Positions 15,005 to 25,157 of a stretch of 53,459 nucleotides of DNA are shown here, one piece after another (within the stretch, counting starts at the first letter, position 1; every line of letters starts with the position of its first letter). The position numbers and the translations under genes were made by a program. Source of the stretch: Gemmatimonadales bacterium (GTDB taxonomy: Bacteria > Gemmatimonadota > Glassbacteria > GWA2-58-10); the NCBI GenBank assembly GCA_024278175.1, contig JAJRTS010000057.1, forward strand, positions 1-53,459, read 5' to 3'. Below the pieces are notes generated by a model. The model did not search any database, was not told the DNA's origin, and saw only the letters and a program-made list of their open reading frames with translations.

Positions 15005-16049
15005 TGAGAAGATCAGGGCGGTGGCGATGCTCTCCGGCGGGCTGGACAGCTCGCTGGCGGTAAAGATCGTCATCGACCAGGGCATAGAAGTTGTCGGTGT
15101 CAACTACAGCACGGGCTTCTGCCTCACGGACCACCGTCGCAAGATGGTGGGCATGGGCGCGGAAATCGACCCGAAATCCGTGCGCAACGAGGCTCTTCAG
15201 GCCGGAGCCAGGTGGCGTATTCCGGTGGAGATTATCGATATCTCGAAAGAATACATGGATATCCTGACCAATCCCCGCTACGGCTACGGCAAAAACGTCA
15301 ACCCCTGTATCGACTGCCGGATTTTCATGCAGAAAAAAACGCTGGAGTACATGGAAAAAGTGGGAGCAAGGTTCATTATCACCGGCGAGGTGCTGGGCCA
15401 GCGGCCGATGAGCCAGATGAAACAGTCCATGCACCTGATCGAGATGAGAAGCGGAGCGGAGGGCAAGGTGCTGCGCCCGCTCTCTGCCAAGCTGCTCAAG
15501 CCCACGATCGCCGAGACCCAGGGCTGGGTGGACCGCAAGAAACTCTTTGGCTTCAAGGGCCGTAGCCGCAAGCCGCAGATGGAACTGGCCAGTAAAATCG
15601 GCCTGGCCGAGTACCCTCAACCCGCCGGCGGCTGCTGTTTCCTGACAGATCCCAACTACGCACGCCGGATGCAGGACCTGTTTAGCCATCAGGATAAAAA
15701 AACCCTGACCACCGAGCAGGTGATGCTGCTCAAGGTGGGCCGCCATTTCCGCGTCGACAACAGGTCGAAAGCCGTTGTCGGGCGCAACGAGGCCGAGAAC
15801 CTGCTGATGGAAAGCCAGGCCGGAGACAGGATACGCTTCAACTGCACGGAGGTGGTGGGCCCGCTGACCCTGTTGGAGGGCGAGTGCGGAGACAAGGCCG
15901 TGGAACTGGCCGCCCGCCTGACCGCCCGTTACGGCGACGGCAAACAGCTCGATAAAGTGGAAGTAAAAATGGAAACCCACGATGGCGGCGAGCGCGTGCT
16001 CACGGTTGAGCCGATGGATGACCCTGAATGCGACAGGATGAGAATCTGA
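14997..16049 (+). CDS. PP-loop ATPase with C-terminal NFACT-R-like domain (ThiI/MnmA-like tRNA sulfuration candidate)
   Basis: This 350-residue protein has an N-terminal PP-loop (AMLSGGLDSSLAV, about 11-23). The pyrophosphatase domain contains NPCIDCRIFM near 101-110, a CxxC that could carry persulfide or metal, and FIITGEVLGQRPMSQ. A GGCCFLTD motif follows near 209. The C-terminal part, KVGRHFRVDNRSKAVVGRNEAENLL, resembles the NFACT-R RNA-binding domain known to be fused to ThiI-like enzymes. The likely role is RNA thiolation or a related adenylation, but the target is unknown. It overlaps the upstream BadF-like gene by 8 bp and mnmE by 22 bp, so the three are translationally coupled. The neighbourhood (mnmE, mnmG) supports a tRNA-modification role. 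Confidence 0.75.
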   Translation: MSDEKIRAVAMLSGGLDSSLAVKIVIDQGIEVVGVNYSTGFCLTDHRRKMVGMGAEIDPKSVRNEALQAGARWRIPVEIIDISKEYMDILTNPRYGYGKNVNPCIDCRIFMQKKTLEYMEKVGARFIITGEVLGQRPMSQMKQSMHLIEMRSGAEGKVLRPLSAKLLKPTIAETQGWVDRKKLFGFKGRSRKPQMELASKIGLAEYPQPAGGCCFLTDPNYARRMQDLFSHQDKKTLTTEQVMLLKVGRHFRVDNRSKAVVGRNEAENLLMESQAGDRIRFNCTEVVGPLTLLEGECGDKAVELAARLTARYGDGKQLDKVEVKMETHDGGERVLTVEPMDDPECDRMRI

Positions 16050-17413
16050 CAGCGCGTGCGTCCAAAACTGGCAGCGGCGACACTGTTGTCGCCCTTTCGA
16101 GCGCGCGCGGGGTCGGCGCGGTGGCTGTCGTGCGCCTGAGCGGGCCGGATTCGTGGGCTATCGCCCGCAAAATGGTGGCCGGGAGAAAAAAATTCGGCGC
16201 GCTTAGCCCACGCAAGATGGCCCTGTGCAACCTGATCGGCGGCGGCGGGGAACTGATCGACAGGGCGCTGGCGGTCAAGTTTGCCGGCCCGGCAAGCTAC
16301 ACGGGCGAGGACAGTGTTGAATTTCACTGCCACGGCGGGCTGGCGGTCAGCTCGGCGGTGATAGATGCCGCTCTTCGGCACGGGGCACGCAGCGCCACCG
16401 CCGGGGAGTTCACCCGCAGGGCCTTCCTTAACGGCCGGCTGGACCTGGCCCAGGCCGAGGCTGTGGACAGTCTGGTCCACGCCCGCACCGATGAGGGCCG
16501 GCGGGCGGCACTGGCCGGGCTGGATGGCGGTCTCGGCACGCAGGTGGAGGCCATGCGACGCTCGCTGATAGAGCTAAAGACCGAACTTGAATACCGGATA
16601 GACTTCCCCGACGAAGCCGGCCAGGGCCTCTCCGCAGAAAAAATCGAATCCCTGCTGGATGACTCGCTGGCGAAGCTGGCCGCGCTGCTGCAGGGAGCAC
16701 GGCGTGCGCTGCTCGCCTGCCGTGGCGCCGTGGTGGTGATAGCCGGCGCGCCCAACGTGGGCAAGAGTTCGTTGTTCAACACTCTGCTCGGCAGCAACCG
16801 CGCGATAGTGACCGCCACGCCCGGCACCACCCGCGACGCGGTAGAGAGCGAACTTGTGCTTGACGGGCATCTTGTACGCCTGGTGGACACCGCCGGACTT
16901 CGAGAGAGCAGCGGCGAGGCCGAGCAGATGGGGGTGGAGTATAGCAGGCATTATATTGCAAGCAGCGATGTGGTGCTGTTCGTCCACGAGGCGGGCAGCG
17001 ATTTCAGGCGGGCGGAGAGCGAATTCCTGGCTGAATACGGTCACGGCAAGCTGGTGCGGGTGCTGAGCAAGGTTGATCTTAACCCCGTGCCTGATGACGA
17101 GGCAGAGGGATTCATCCCGGTCTCCGCCAAAACCGGCCAGGGCATGCCGCGGCTCAGGCGCGCAATTGCCACCGCGGTGGAGTCGGCTACCGGCGGCTCC
17201 GGGGAAAAGACATCGCCAGTCACCAGTCTCCGTCAACAGAAGCTGCTGGAGGAAGCCCGCGAGTTGCTGAGGGCTGCTTGCCCGGCCAACCCGCCGGAGA
17301 TTATCGCGGCGGATATCGACGAGGTCTGCACGCGGCTGAGCGAGATCACCGGCCGGATTTCAGGCGAGGACGTGCTCGATTCCATCTTCTCAAGGTTCTG
17401 TATCGGCAAGTAG
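16028..17413 (+). CDS. mnmE: tRNA modification GTPase MnmE (TrmE)
   Basis: This 461-residue GTPase works with MnmG to install the 5-carboxymethylaminomethyl group on wobble uridine of tRNAs. The N-terminal folate-binding domain begins DTVVALSSARGVGAVAVVRLSG. The GTPase domain shows G1 GAPNVGKSS, G2 TPGTTRD, G3 DTAG and a G4 of SKVD where most members have NKxD. The C-terminus ends FCIGK, whose cysteine is the essential catalytic residue. The start overlaps the preceding gene by 22 bp. A 34-bp perfect palindrome containing a parS site begins four bases after the stop, and mnmG follows at 17501. Confidence 0.97.
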   Translation: MRQDENLTARASKTGSGDTVVALSSARGVGAVAVVRLSGPDSWAIARKMVAGRKKFGALSPRKMALCNLIGGGGELIDRALAVKFAGPASYTGEDSVEFHCHGGLAVSSAVIDAALRHGARSATAGEFTRRAFLNGRLDLAQAEAVDSLVHARTDEGRRAALAGLDGGLGTQVEAMRRSLIELKTELEYRIDFPDEAGQGLSAEKIESLLDDSLAKLAALLQGARRALLACRGAVVVIAGAPNVGKSSLFNTLLGSNRAIVTATPGTTRDAVESELVLDGHLVRLVDTAGLRESSGEAEQMGVEYSRHYIASSDVVLFVHEAGSDFRRAESEFLAEYGHGKLVRVLSKVDLNPVPDDEAEGFIPVSAKTGQGMPRLRRAIATAVESATGGSGEKTSPVTSLRQQKLLEEARELLRAACPANPPEIIAADIDEVCTRLSEITGRISGEDVLDSIFSRFCIGK

Positions 17414-17425
17414 GCGCCGGGCGAA

Positions 17426-17441
17426 TGTTTCACGTGAAACA
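17426..17441. promoter_or_regulatory. parS: parS centromere site 1
   Basis: TGTTTCACGTGAAACA is an exact match to the ParB-binding parS consensus. It sits at the centre of a 34-bp perfect palindrome (17417-17450), 13 bp after the mnmE stop. Site 2 is centred 57 bp away. The longer palindrome could also act as a transcript-end hairpin. Confidence 0.93.
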
Positions 17442-17482
17442 TTCGCCCGGACGCTAAATATTATTCCCCAATACATCCCACT

Positions 17483-17498
17483 TGTTTCACGTGAAACA
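17483..17498. promoter_or_regulatory. parS: parS centromere site 2
   Basis: A second exact TGTTTCACGTGAAACA ends two bases before the mnmG start codon at 17501. It occupies the place where a Shine-Dalgarno sequence would lie. ParB bound here could affect transcription or initiation of mnmG. Confidence 0.93.
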
Positions 17499-17500
17499 TC

Positions 17501-19369
17501 ATGGCCAAACGTTCTTTCGACATCGCCGTAATCGGAGCCGGGCACGCAGGGGTTGAAGCCGCCCGGGCGGCCGTGGCTGCCGGGGGCAGCGTGGCCCTTG
17601 TCACCAGCCGCCCCGAGACCATGGGCCAGATGTCCTGCAACCCCGCTATCGGCGGGGTTGCCAAGGGACAGCTCGTGCGCGAAATCGACGCGCTGGGCGG
17701 GCTGATGGCCCGCGCAACCGACAGGGCCTCGATCCAGTTCCGGATGCTCAATACCAGCAAAGGCCCCGCCGTGCGTTCCCCACGCTCCCAGAGCGACCGC
17801 TTCCGCTATGTACGCTCGCTTACGCAACTGGTAAACGAAATCCCCGGCCTCACGGTCGTCTCCGCCACCGCCACGGCTATCGAAACCCGCGAGGGCAGGG
17901 TGCGCGCCGTCCGCACAGACCGCGGGGGAACCCTTGAAGTAAAAGCCGCGGTACTCGCCGCCGGGACATTTCTCAACGGTCTGATCAGGCTGGGGGAGAA
18001 ACAAATCCCGGCTGGACGGGCGGGGGATTCTCCCTCGCTCGCCCTGGCGGAAAGCCTTAAACAACTCGGCCTTGGAGTCCATCGCTTCAAGACCGGCACG
18101 CCCCCCCGGATCGACCGCAACACGGTCAATTTCGGGGCCCTGACCGAGCAGACGGGCGATGAGCCCTCGTACCGTTTCGCCCACTTCCACCGGTGCGAAT
18201 CCCTGCCGCAGGTCAGTTGCTGGCACACCCGCACCTCCAGCCTTACACGCGCGCTTGTCTTGGATAACCTCAAGCTCTCCAGCATGTACGGCGGTTGGGT
18301 GGAGGGCACCGGCCCGCGCTATTGCCCCTCGATCGAAGACAAGTTCGTCAGGTTTCCCCAACGCGACCGCCATCATCTGTTCCTCGAACCCGAGGGACTC
18401 GACAGCGATGAGATGTATCTCAACGGCCTTTCGAACAGCCTGCCCCTGGATGTCCAGACGAAGCTTGTCAACAGTGTCGAGGGCCTTGAAAGCGCGCGGA
18501 TAATCCGGCCGGGATACGCTATCGAGTACGACTGCTACGACCCGGCAGAGCTGGAGCTATCGCTTGAAAGCAGGATCGTACGAGGGCTGTATCTCGCAGG
18601 GCAGGTCAACGGCACCAGCGGCTACGAGGAAGCGGCGGGACAGGGACTGGCCGCCGGGCTTAACGCAGCTCTCTCGCTCAGGGGAGAACCGCCGGTGATA
18701 TTTGGCCGCGCTCAGAGTTATCTGGGAGTAATGATCGACGATCTAGTGACTCACGGAGCGGACGAGCCGTATCGCCTGTTCAGTTCACGGGCCGAATTCC
18801 GCCTCAGCCTGCGCCAGGACAACGCGGACATCCGCCTCTCGCCGCTGGCCCACAGCCATGGTCTGATTACCGGTGAGCAGTTCCGGAGGGTGCGCAGGAG
18901 ACAGGACGAAGTTGCTAAGCTGATTGAGCTGGTGCGCCGGACCAGGGTCGGTGCGGAGCGGATAAATCCCCTGCTTCGCCGTTGCGGCAGCACCGAAACC
19001 AGCGAATCTCCCACCGTGGAAAAAGTCCTTCGCCGCCCGGAGATTGGTGCGCCCGGACTATTCTCGCACCTCGGCGGTGATTTTGCGGGCTTCCCCTCCG
19101 CTGTTATCGCGCAGGTGGAGATGGAAATAAAGTATGAGGGTTACATGACCCGGGAAAGGTCTCGCCAGGAGCAGGCAACCAGACTGGAGCGGGTAAGAAT
19201 TCCAGCCAGGCTGGATTACTCCTCACTTCAGTCATTATCCACCGAAAGCCGTCAGCGTCTGGCCAGCCATCGGCCTTCATCACTTGGACAGGCTTCCAGA
19301 ATTCCCGGATTGCGTCCTGACGATATCTCCGCCCTGATGGTCGAGTTGAGCCGCCGTAAAAATAAATAA
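17501..19369 (+). CDS. mnmG: tRNA uridine 5-carboxymethylaminomethyl modification enzyme MnmG (GidA)
   Basis: This 622-residue FAD enzyme is the partner of MnmE. The N-terminus has the dinucleotide motif IAVIGAGHAGVEAA. Conserved MnmG segments are SCNPAIGGVAKGQLVREIDALGG, GTFLNG, FKTGTPPRI, RYCPSIEDKFVRF, FLEPEG and GLYLAGQVNGTSGYEEAAGQGL. The C-terminal part (FSSRAEFRLSLRQDNADIRL, then EIKYEGYM and the IPGLRPDDISAL helix-hairpin) is complete. No clear Shine-Dalgarno sequence is visible; the leader is the second parS site. The gene closes the operon that starts at 14351. Confidence 0.97.
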   Translation: MAKRSFDIAVIGAGHAGVEAARAAVAAGGSVALVTSRPETMGQMSCNPAIGGVAKGQLVREIDALGGLMARATDRASIQFRMLNTSKGPAVRSPRSQSDRFRYVRSLTQLVNEIPGLTVVSATATAIETREGRVRAVRTDRGGTLEVKAAVLAAGTFLNGLIRLGEKQIPAGRAGDSPSLALAESLKQLGLGVHRFKTGTPPRIDRNTVNFGALTEQTGDEPSYRFAHFHRCESLPQVSCWHTRTSSLTRALVLDNLKLSSMYGGWVEGTGPRYCPSIEDKFVRFPQRDRHHLFLEPEGLDSDEMYLNGLSNSLPLDVQTKLVNSVEGLESARIIRPGYAIEYDCYDPAELELSLESRIVRGLYLAGQVNGTSGYEEAAGQGLAAGLNAALSLRGEPPVIFGRAQSYLGVMIDDLVTHGADEPYRLFSSRAEFRLSLRQDNADIRLSPLAHSHGLITGEQFRRVRRRQDEVAKLIELVRRTRVGAERINPLLRRCGSTETSESPTVEKVLRRPEIGAPGLFSHLGGDFAGFPSAVIAQVEMEIKYEGYMTRERSRQEQATRLERVRIPARLDYSSLQSLSTESRQRLASHRPSSLGQASRIPGLRPDDISALMVELSRRKNK

Positions 19370-22307: not shown

Positions 22308-25157
22308 TTACTCGTCGTTTTCCTCCACGGACATTTCCTCTTCTTCGTCAGGTTCCGGCAAGTTCTCCATCAGCCACAAACGCTGTTGGGGATCGGGCAT
22401 TGCGTACGGGACTTTTATCGGCAGGCGCCCCTCGGCAGTAAAACCGCATTGTTCCAACTGCTCCTGCTTTTCCGGAGTGTACCAGGTCACCATCACCCGC
22501 TCGTCCGCCACAACGAACGCCAGTACACCGCGGTAAATTCCGATCCTGCCGACATTCTCCGGATCCATAAACCCGCTGTCCACCGAACGCTCGCTAACTT
22601 CCTCCGGCACAGGCTTCAGACCGTGCTTCTCCATATTAGCCAGCGCTTTCTGGTTTTGCTTTGCCTGCAGTCTGCTCTCCTCCTCCTGGCGGCAGCGCTC
22701 TTTCTCCTGCTCGGGAATCATCGCGTGAAGCGTTTCGATATCTTCCTGGTCCGGTTTGCTGTATGGCAGGTCGGTGATCGCTTCCCGCAGCGTGTAACCG
22801 GCACCGACCAGCATGGCCACTTTTTCGTCCGTCTCGGGAGTAATGTAGTAATTGCGGGCCGTGTCGATAAAAAAGAGCAGTTCGCTCCGGCTGAAATAGC
22901 CACCCACGTGCTGGGCGTTAACCTGCTCGATCAGCACGCTGCGTTCGATCAACCGGCTGTCGAGTTCTTTCAAGCCCAGTTGCGCGGCGATATCCGCCGC
23001 CAGGTGATCTTCCCTGCTGCCGTGGGCCTGCTCTATTTCCTGACGGCTGCGCTCCAGCTCACCGGCGGGAAGGTTCTGCTCCAGCCACAAAAGGTCCTCG
23101 CTGGAATCAGAACTATGCGGGATCGCGAACCGGCTGGTGGCGTAAGTGTAATTCGCCTTTTTCAGCGCTTCCAGCTTGCCCGGCGTACTGGGAGTAACCC
23201 ACACGGCGGCATCGGGGCCGACAACGCCCAGCATGTCGACCTCTGCATAGTAGCGCCCGATCTGCCCCACGATTTCTTTATCGCTGCGGGCTGCGCGGCT
23301 GCGAATTTCCTCCGGCAACTCGTCATCGATACCCAACTTCTCCAGCAGCTTTTTCCTGCCCTCCACGGTTTTTTTTCGCTCCAGTTCCGCAAGCTCCTGG
23401 GTGCTACGCTCCAATTCACCCGCGGGAAGAGATGTCTCCAGCCACTTCCTGTCCTCCTGCGTACCCGAACCGTACGGCACACGCACCATCGTTTCCGGCA
23501 CCCTGTAACCGGCCTCGCGCAGAGCGGCCTCTTTCCACGGGACCGTGGGCGTGACATGGAACCGGCCATCCTCGCGCACATAGCAGGTCACGCCGTTACG
23601 TGAGCAGAAAGTACCGATTAGCTCGATATTTTCCTCCTCGGTTGCGGCCGAGCGCTTTACAAGTTCATCCGGGAGCTTTTTAAGCCCGGCCCCCTCCAAT
23701 ACCTTTTTGCGCTGTGCGTCGCCTTGCTTCCGGCGCTCTTCCTCGCGCTCCCGGCGGCTTTCCTCAATTTCCCGGCTGGAGAGATGACGCTGGATGAACT
23801 CCATATCCTGTGGAGTTCCATCTGAATGCGGCATGGTGAATCCCGTCCGGGCCGGGCTGTAGTTGACCCCCTGGAGCAGCTCCACTTTGCTGTTGGCCGC
23901 GGGCGTAATGTAAACCGATCCAGAGGGTTCCACATAGCCCAGGATGTCGTTGCGGATAAAATACTGGCCCACATAGGCCGGTTGTTTCTTGTCGGTAAGG
24001 ATCGAGCGGTCGGTAAGCTCGACCGGCAAGTCGCCCAGGCCCAGTTTGCGCTGAAGTTTCTCCGCCTGCTCGAACTGTCTCTGCTGTAATTCGTTACGCG
24101 TGCTCCTTTTGGCTTCGTCCCAGTGCTCCGGGGCGATATTCTCCTGCAGCCAGTTTACATCCTCTGCTGTTTTCAGCGAGTGGGGCACTCTTATCGTGCT
24201 GCCCATAAACTGATAGCCGTGTTCCTTGAGTATCTCCAGCTTTTCACGGGTGGCCGGAGTTACATATGTAACACCCTCGGCATCGGTGAAACTGAGAATA
24301 CCGTTATGCGAACCGCTCATCCCGGCATACTCTGCGTAATCCTCCTGGCAACGCGCGCTGGCACCCATCAACTCGGCGGGCAACTCCTTGAGGCCCAGCT
24401 CCTCTATTCTCTGCCTGGCCCGGCGGATGTTATCCTCCGCGCGCCTCTGCTCGATTTCCGCCTCGCAACGGGTCCATTCATCGGCCGGAATGTTTTCCGC
24501 CAGCCAGCGGGTGTTCGCCGGGTCGGCCAGCGAATACGGCACCTTGATCATCGAGCCGACCCACTGATAGCCGTGCTGTTCGAGCAGTTCCTGCTTCAAC
24601 TCGGAAAAGGGGGTAACCCAGGTGGTGGTGTTCCAGTCCGTAAAGGAAAGCACGCCGTGGTAGGCCGCGCACAGCCCCACATTCAGGAAGTATTTCTGGT
24701 CGACACTCACGCAGCGGGCAAGAAAATCCTTCGGCAGTTCCCCCAGCCCTTCAAGGTTCACCTCGATAATGGAAGAATAAACCTTGCCGTCCAGTTTGGG
24801 CATCCGGTTTTCTTCCAGCGAACGGCGGATTTCGCTGCGCGGAAGTTTTCTCTTCAGGTGGCGCTTGCTCTTGACCGAGCCGTCGGAGTAGGGGACCTCG
24901 ATCTGCGGACGCGGTTTGCTGAAGCCACAGCTTTCGAGGAGATCTAACTTGAGGCGCGTGCCGGGGGTAAGGTAGACGGAGCCGTCGTGGTCGACAAAGG
25001 CGATAATACCTCCCTTGAAGCCGTAGCTCAGCGCCTGCTCCTTGCGAGGTTCATCCAGGCGGATACTGCGGCAGATCAGCCCCGGCGGGGCCTTGCGCTC
25101 ACGTGCAGCGTCCTGGTTTTGCTCGGCTTTGTCTTTTTCGGCTTCCACCTGGGCCAT
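22308..25157 (-). CDS. 949-residue protein of eight divergent ~118-residue repeats, unknown function
   Basis: I do not recognise this protein. It consists of eight divergent repeats (roughly residues 25-113, 135-232, 250-350, 370-470, 487-585, 603-703, 722-820 and 843-940). Each repeat runs: a short LGLKELPxEL helix, an RS or similar pair, a YVGxYxxRNGILSFVD-like strand pair, xYVTPxTxxKLxLLxxxGY, a V/IPYS or IPHS turn, then DxxWLxxNLPxxELERSRQE. Acidic, Gln/Arg-rich linkers that look coiled-coil-forming join the repeats. There is no signal peptide or membrane segment, so it is probably cytoplasmic. The repeats are only modestly similar, which indicates old duplication. GGAGAG precedes the start. 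Its neighbours are a DUF218 protein and a SPOR lipoprotein. Confidence 0.85.
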   Translation of the reverse strand: MAQVEAEKDKAEQNQDAARERKAPPGLICRSIRLDEPRKEQALSYGFKGGIIAFVDHDGSVYLTPGTRLKLDLLESCGFSKPRPQIEVPYSDGSVKSKRHLKRKLPRSEIRRSLEENRMPKLDGKVYSSIIEVNLEGLGELPKDFLARCVSVDQKYFLNVGLCAAYHGVLSFTDWNTTTWVTPFSELKQELLEQHGYQWVGSMIKVPYSLADPANTRWLAENIPADEWTRCEAEIEQRRAEDNIRRARQRIEELGLKELPAELMGASARCQEDYAEYAGMSGSHNGILSFTDAEGVTYVTPATREKLEILKEHGYQFMGSTIRVPHSLKTAEDVNWLQENIAPEHWDEAKRSTRNELQQRQFEQAEKLQRKLGLGDLPVELTDRSILTDKKQPAYVGQYFIRNDILGYVEPSGSVYITPAANSKVELLQGVNYSPARTGFTMPHSDGTPQDMEFIQRHLSSREIEESRREREEERRKQGDAQRKKVLEGAGLKKLPDELVKRSAATEEENIELIGTFCSRNGVTCYVREDGRFHVTPTVPWKEAALREAGYRVPETMVRVPYGSGTQEDRKWLETSLPAGELERSTQELAELERKKTVEGRKKLLEKLGIDDELPEEIRSRAARSDKEIVGQIGRYYAEVDMLGVVGPDAAVWVTPSTPGKLEALKKANYTYATSRFAIPHSSDSSEDLLWLEQNLPAGELERSRQEIEQAHGSREDHLAADIAAQLGLKELDSRLIERSVLIEQVNAQHVGGYFSRSELLFFIDTARNYYITPETDEKVAMLVGAGYTLREAITDLPYSKPDQEDIETLHAMIPEQEKERCRQEEESRLQAKQNQKALANMEKHGLKPVPEEVSERSVDSGFMDPENVGRIGIYRGVLAFVVADERVMVTWYTPEKQEQLEQCGFTAEGRLPIKVPYAMPDPQQRLWLMENLPEPDEEEEMSVEENDE

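Follow-up and report, generated by a model that had tools for sequence, protein, structure and literature searches.

Paired parS sites between mnmE and mnmG as a probable chromosomal centromere in a Glassbacteria-like bacterium

Two exact parS sites in the mnmE-mnmG spacer

The window, meaning the whole 53,459-nucleotide stretch analysed, comprises the entire contig C46 of a draft genome of 4.18 Mb in 113 contigs, with 97% completeness. The genome is Glassbacteria-like, its nearest named relative being Candidatus Glassbacteria (MnmG 61% identical). The tRNA-modification genes mnmE and mnmG are separated by a single 87-bp spacer, and the features of the locus are as follows.

16028..17413, plus strand: mnmE (trmE), tRNA-modification GTPase, with strong Pfam matches to MnmE_helical, TrmE_N and MMR_HSR1
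17417..17450, plus strand: perfect 34-bp palindrome CCGGGCGAATGTTTCACGTGAAACATTCGCCCGG with site 1 as its core, beginning 3 bp past the mnmE stop
17426..17441, no strand assigned: parS site 1 (mnmE-proximal), exact 16-bp consensus, beginning 12 bp past the mnmE stop
17483..17498, no strand assigned: parS site 2, exact 16-bp consensus, ending 2 bp short of the mnmG ATG
17501..19369, plus strand: mnmG (gidA), tRNA uridine-modification enzyme, with strong Pfam matches to GIDA and SAM_GIDA_C

Both sites are exact copies of the 16-mer TGTTTCACGTGAAACA, with a centre-to-centre distance of 57 bp, and together they fit in 73 bp. The pair and the perfect palindrome around site 1 are thus present as described in the original prediction, which had also argued that the sites are not plausibly due to chance. 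Base composition gives an expectation of 4.9e-6 exact copies for the window, against two seen, and of 3.8e-4 for the genome. A scan of the window allowing up to 3 mismatches found no parS beyond the two exact sites, with a shuffle expectation of 0.14, and a chance origin of the two 16-mers was rejected on the shuffle and composition expectations.

The scan was extended to the whole draft genome, in which no parS with at most 1 mismatch was found besides the two spacer copies. One site was found at 2 mismatches, and at up to 3 mismatches there were 13 sites including the two exact ones, little above the 8 obtained with a reversed-pattern control. A wider set of degenerate parS sites was therefore rejected. 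The original prediction had been made dependent on parS not being spread around the chromosome, and the only two copies both lie in the mnmE-mnmG spacer.

Palindromes close to start codons are often operators, and site 2 abuts the mnmG start, as would be expected of a palindromic operator of another kind, such as one bound by an HTH repressor. That the sites are such an operator, or arose by chance, is nevertheless very improbable given two 16/16 matches where almost none are expected, the lack of further copies in the genome, and the conservation of the site across phyla beside mnmG or parA.

The ParA and ParB of the genome

As stated in the original prediction, parA and parB are absent from the window. 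A profile search of the genome located parB at C50:127420-127947 (TIGR00180, 174.8 bits) with parA immediately upstream, forming the single canonical parA-parB pair of the genome (C50:126.5-128.2 kb), which removes the objection that a genome without parB would have posed. The adjoining parA encodes a ParA of the deviant Walker ATPase type, with a Walker motif. Downstream of parB, the translations indicate what we take to be a peptidase-like gene and a bactofilin-like gene, with a presumed ATP synthase operon not far off.

The C50 ParB contains ParB_N, HTH_ParB and ParB_C domains, and its nearest PDB match is Bacillus subtilis Spo0J (E 4e-50). It carries the motifs GERR (the CTP motif), LGKGL (the ParA-contact motif) and ENLQR. 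At the positions equivalent to R173 and G201 it has R and G (within GKDR and AGHAR), the parS type and not the Noc type; these two residues are absolutely conserved in, and required for, ParBs that read parS (PMC7383237). Judged by its sequence, the C50 ParB is the probable binding partner of the spacer sites. The genome also encodes further ParB-like proteins, one of which, in a 526-aa frame, lies near a DnaA-like ATPase fragment (C37:4771-5166 and 2354-2935); this pair may belong to a mobile element.

We consider the two spacer sites to be the chromosomal centromere of a ParABS segregation system, with a probability of about 0.93, because the sites are exact, are the sole copies in the genome, are conserved in relatives, and are accompanied by a matching ParA and ParB. 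Reasoning from other species, the C50 ParB would form a CTP-dependent clamp at each parS on loading and slide from there onto the flanking DNA across mnmE and mnmG. The C50-encoded ParA would then draw the ParB-parS complex, and hence the origin region, apart after replication.

Conservation in the family and comparison with known systems

The relatives examined in the same family are denoted G001 to G005, with G000 for the present genome and G001 the closest, a member of the same genus. In each of the four relatives with a readable spacer (G001-G004), a search at up to 1 mismatch gave one pair of parS sites in the mnmE-mnmG interval and no others in the genome; G005, in which neither such a parS nor mnmG was found, is uninformative on this point. 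The spacing between the sites is variable (57, 58, 46, 93 and 47 bp in the five family genomes), and a conserved inter-site distance was rejected.

The other families of the phylum share the site, often beside mnmG. There parS adjoins parA, usually in the mnmG-parA interval and mostly in the order mnmG-parS-parA-parB, whereas in the present family it lies upstream of mnmG and is detached from parAB. In one phylum genome, G031, parS occurs on both sides of mnmG.

Among the closest known arrangements is that of the Alphaproteobacteria, best studied in Caulobacter crescentus, with the order mnmE-parS-mnmG-parS-rsmG-parA-parB. In this class parS is common in the mnmE-mnmG spacer, with another site at the rsmG start, and the present locus shares both the 16-bp site and the spacer position with many of these loci. 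It differs in that mnmG is not followed by parAB, a search for rsmG-family genes gave no match, and both sites share one spacer. The Caulobacter parS sites form a cluster some 8 kb away from the origin (PMC5815017). The consensus is likewise shared with the Spo0J-parS system of B. subtilis, whose Spo0J is the closest solved ParB by sequence; the strongest B. subtilis parS sites are dispersed around the origin across tens of kb (PMC5815017), unlike the single-spacer pair here. Overall, the locus is a well-conserved chromosomal parS of the ordinary kind, its layout being mildly unusual, and the original reading of it is supported.

A search for rsmG (gidB, TIGR00138) gave no match in the six family genomes G000-G005 and gave matches in 13 of 14 control genomes; this 16S rRNA methyltransferase may have been lost throughout the lineage.

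Separation of parS from parAB and position in the chromosome

From contig bounds alone, parS on C46 and parAB on C50 are at least 34 kb apart. Exact 141-bp overlaps between contig ends gave the chains C46-C107-C49 and C50-C74-C62, and if these are true joins the bound rises to about 162 kb. In the same-genus relative G001, mnmEG and parAB are separated by at least about 108 kb. In the Glassbacteria-like family parAB has split off from mnmEG, and parS has stayed beside mnmEG. This parting, in which parS kept its place beside mnmG, is mildly novel, and suggests that the position of parS is held by chromosomal location and not by linkage to its own genes.

The original prediction had further argued for a near-origin location from the identity of the flanking genes. 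This argument is weak here, since the neighbouring genes are not the classical set: mnmG is followed by neither rsmG nor parAB. The dnaA-dnaN-recF-gyrB genes of this genome lie on a separate 18-kb contig that is not joinable to C46, and attempts to bridge mnmEG, parAB and dnaA through relatives' contigs or contig-end overlaps gave no link to dnaA. GC skew of the draft was uninformative as to where the locus lies with respect to the origin. Among relatives in the phylum whose contigs are long, parS and dnaA are 25 kb (G028), 53 kb (G012) and 143 kb (G009) apart. Sampled GC skew in G012, although noisy, turns from mostly negative to positive at about 1.0 Mb, and dnaA (1.015 Mb) and parS (1.069 Mb) lie close to this change. 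For the present genome we infer the closeness of parS to the origin from other species. The pair of sites gives a location for the probable centromere of an uncultured lineage.

A predicted hairpin around site 1

Folding prediction gives a very stable RNA hairpin for the 67-nt segment that follows the mnmE stop (-33.5 kcal/mol, z -8.4). To compare the sites across the five family genomes, z-scores were calculated by shuffling the flanks with the parS core kept fixed; the observation is post hoc. The site 1 stem gave z-scores of -6.8 (G000), -0.2 (G001), -3.1 (G002), -1.7 (G003) and -5.2 (G004), corresponding to a strong predicted hairpin just past the mnmE stop in four of the five genomes. Site 2 gave values of -0.5 to +1.0 across the family and is never in such a hairpin. 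The site 1 stem sequences vary between genera, with a bulge in G002 and an internal loop in G003. A recurrent hairpin around one parS site is mildly novel, and was absent from the original prediction.

The palindromic flanks may be a mutational by-product, in which the inverted 16-bp repeat prompts replication to switch templates, so that one flank is copied onto the other and the hairpin is functionless. Long extensions are indeed sporadic, with palindromes of at least 32 bp at 3 of 91 perfect parS sites; the arms are lineage-specific, and the same-genus relative has no extension. This origin is harder to reconcile with a feature that recurs within one family at site 1 but spares site 2, and with the persistence of imperfect, bulged stems in G002 and G003, and we give it somewhat less than even odds.

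Alternatively, site 1 may be dual-purpose, serving both as parS and as the apex of an RNA hairpin where the mnmE transcript is ended, paused or protected. Such a hairpin would partly uncouple mnmE from mnmG, possibly modulated by DNA-bound ParB. The unusually stable stem at site 1 in G000, G002, G003 and G004, formed by differing sequences and with bulges or internal loops in G002 and G003, is consistent with this model, as are comparable hairpins at parS in the alphaproteobacteria L083 and L066. One of these, the Pseudolabrys genome L083, has a 42-bp perfect palindrome around its mnmE-proximal parS (L083:9896-9937). Against the model, the stem is missing in the closest relative, and of 31 alphaproteobacterial parS sites no more than 60 bp from an mnmE stop only 5 reach z < -1.64. 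As an intrinsic terminator, site 1 of the present genome has the stable GC-rich stem and lacks a U-tract directly after it; a U-tract is likewise lacking in G002 and G004, TTTTTT follows the stem in G003 only, and a simple terminator scan at site 1 gave no call. Because the present genome lacks the U-tract and G001 lacks the stem, we regard a functional hairpin as doubtful. Its stricter form, in which the hairpin is under selection and the mnmE-proximal parS is a centromere as well as an element for ending or processing mnmE transcripts, linking ParB occupancy to mnmE/mnmG expression, is less likely again. If the hairpin were functional, one sequence would serve both chromosome segregation and transcript ending. 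A general post-mnmE hairpin at alphaproteobacterial parS was rejected, its occurrence there being only sporadic.

Site 2 and the start of mnmG

In G000 and G001, site 2 sits at the position of a ribosome-binding site, 2 bp ahead of the ATG. No Shine-Dalgarno-like sequence was found before the mnmG ATG (window positions 17483-17503), where parS site 2 lies instead. In G003 site 2 overlaps the start codon, sharing the A of the ATG, and in G004 the near-consensus site would be read as MFHVKH, provided that the overlapping ATG is the translation start. ParB bound at parS3 and parS4 of Pseudomonas aeruginosa has been reported to affect expression (PMC7022226), and by analogy ParB on site 2 could affect expression of mnmG. 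On the minus strand at 22308-25157 of the window is a 949-aa ORF with no Pfam match, which is conserved beside mnmG in all four family relatives.
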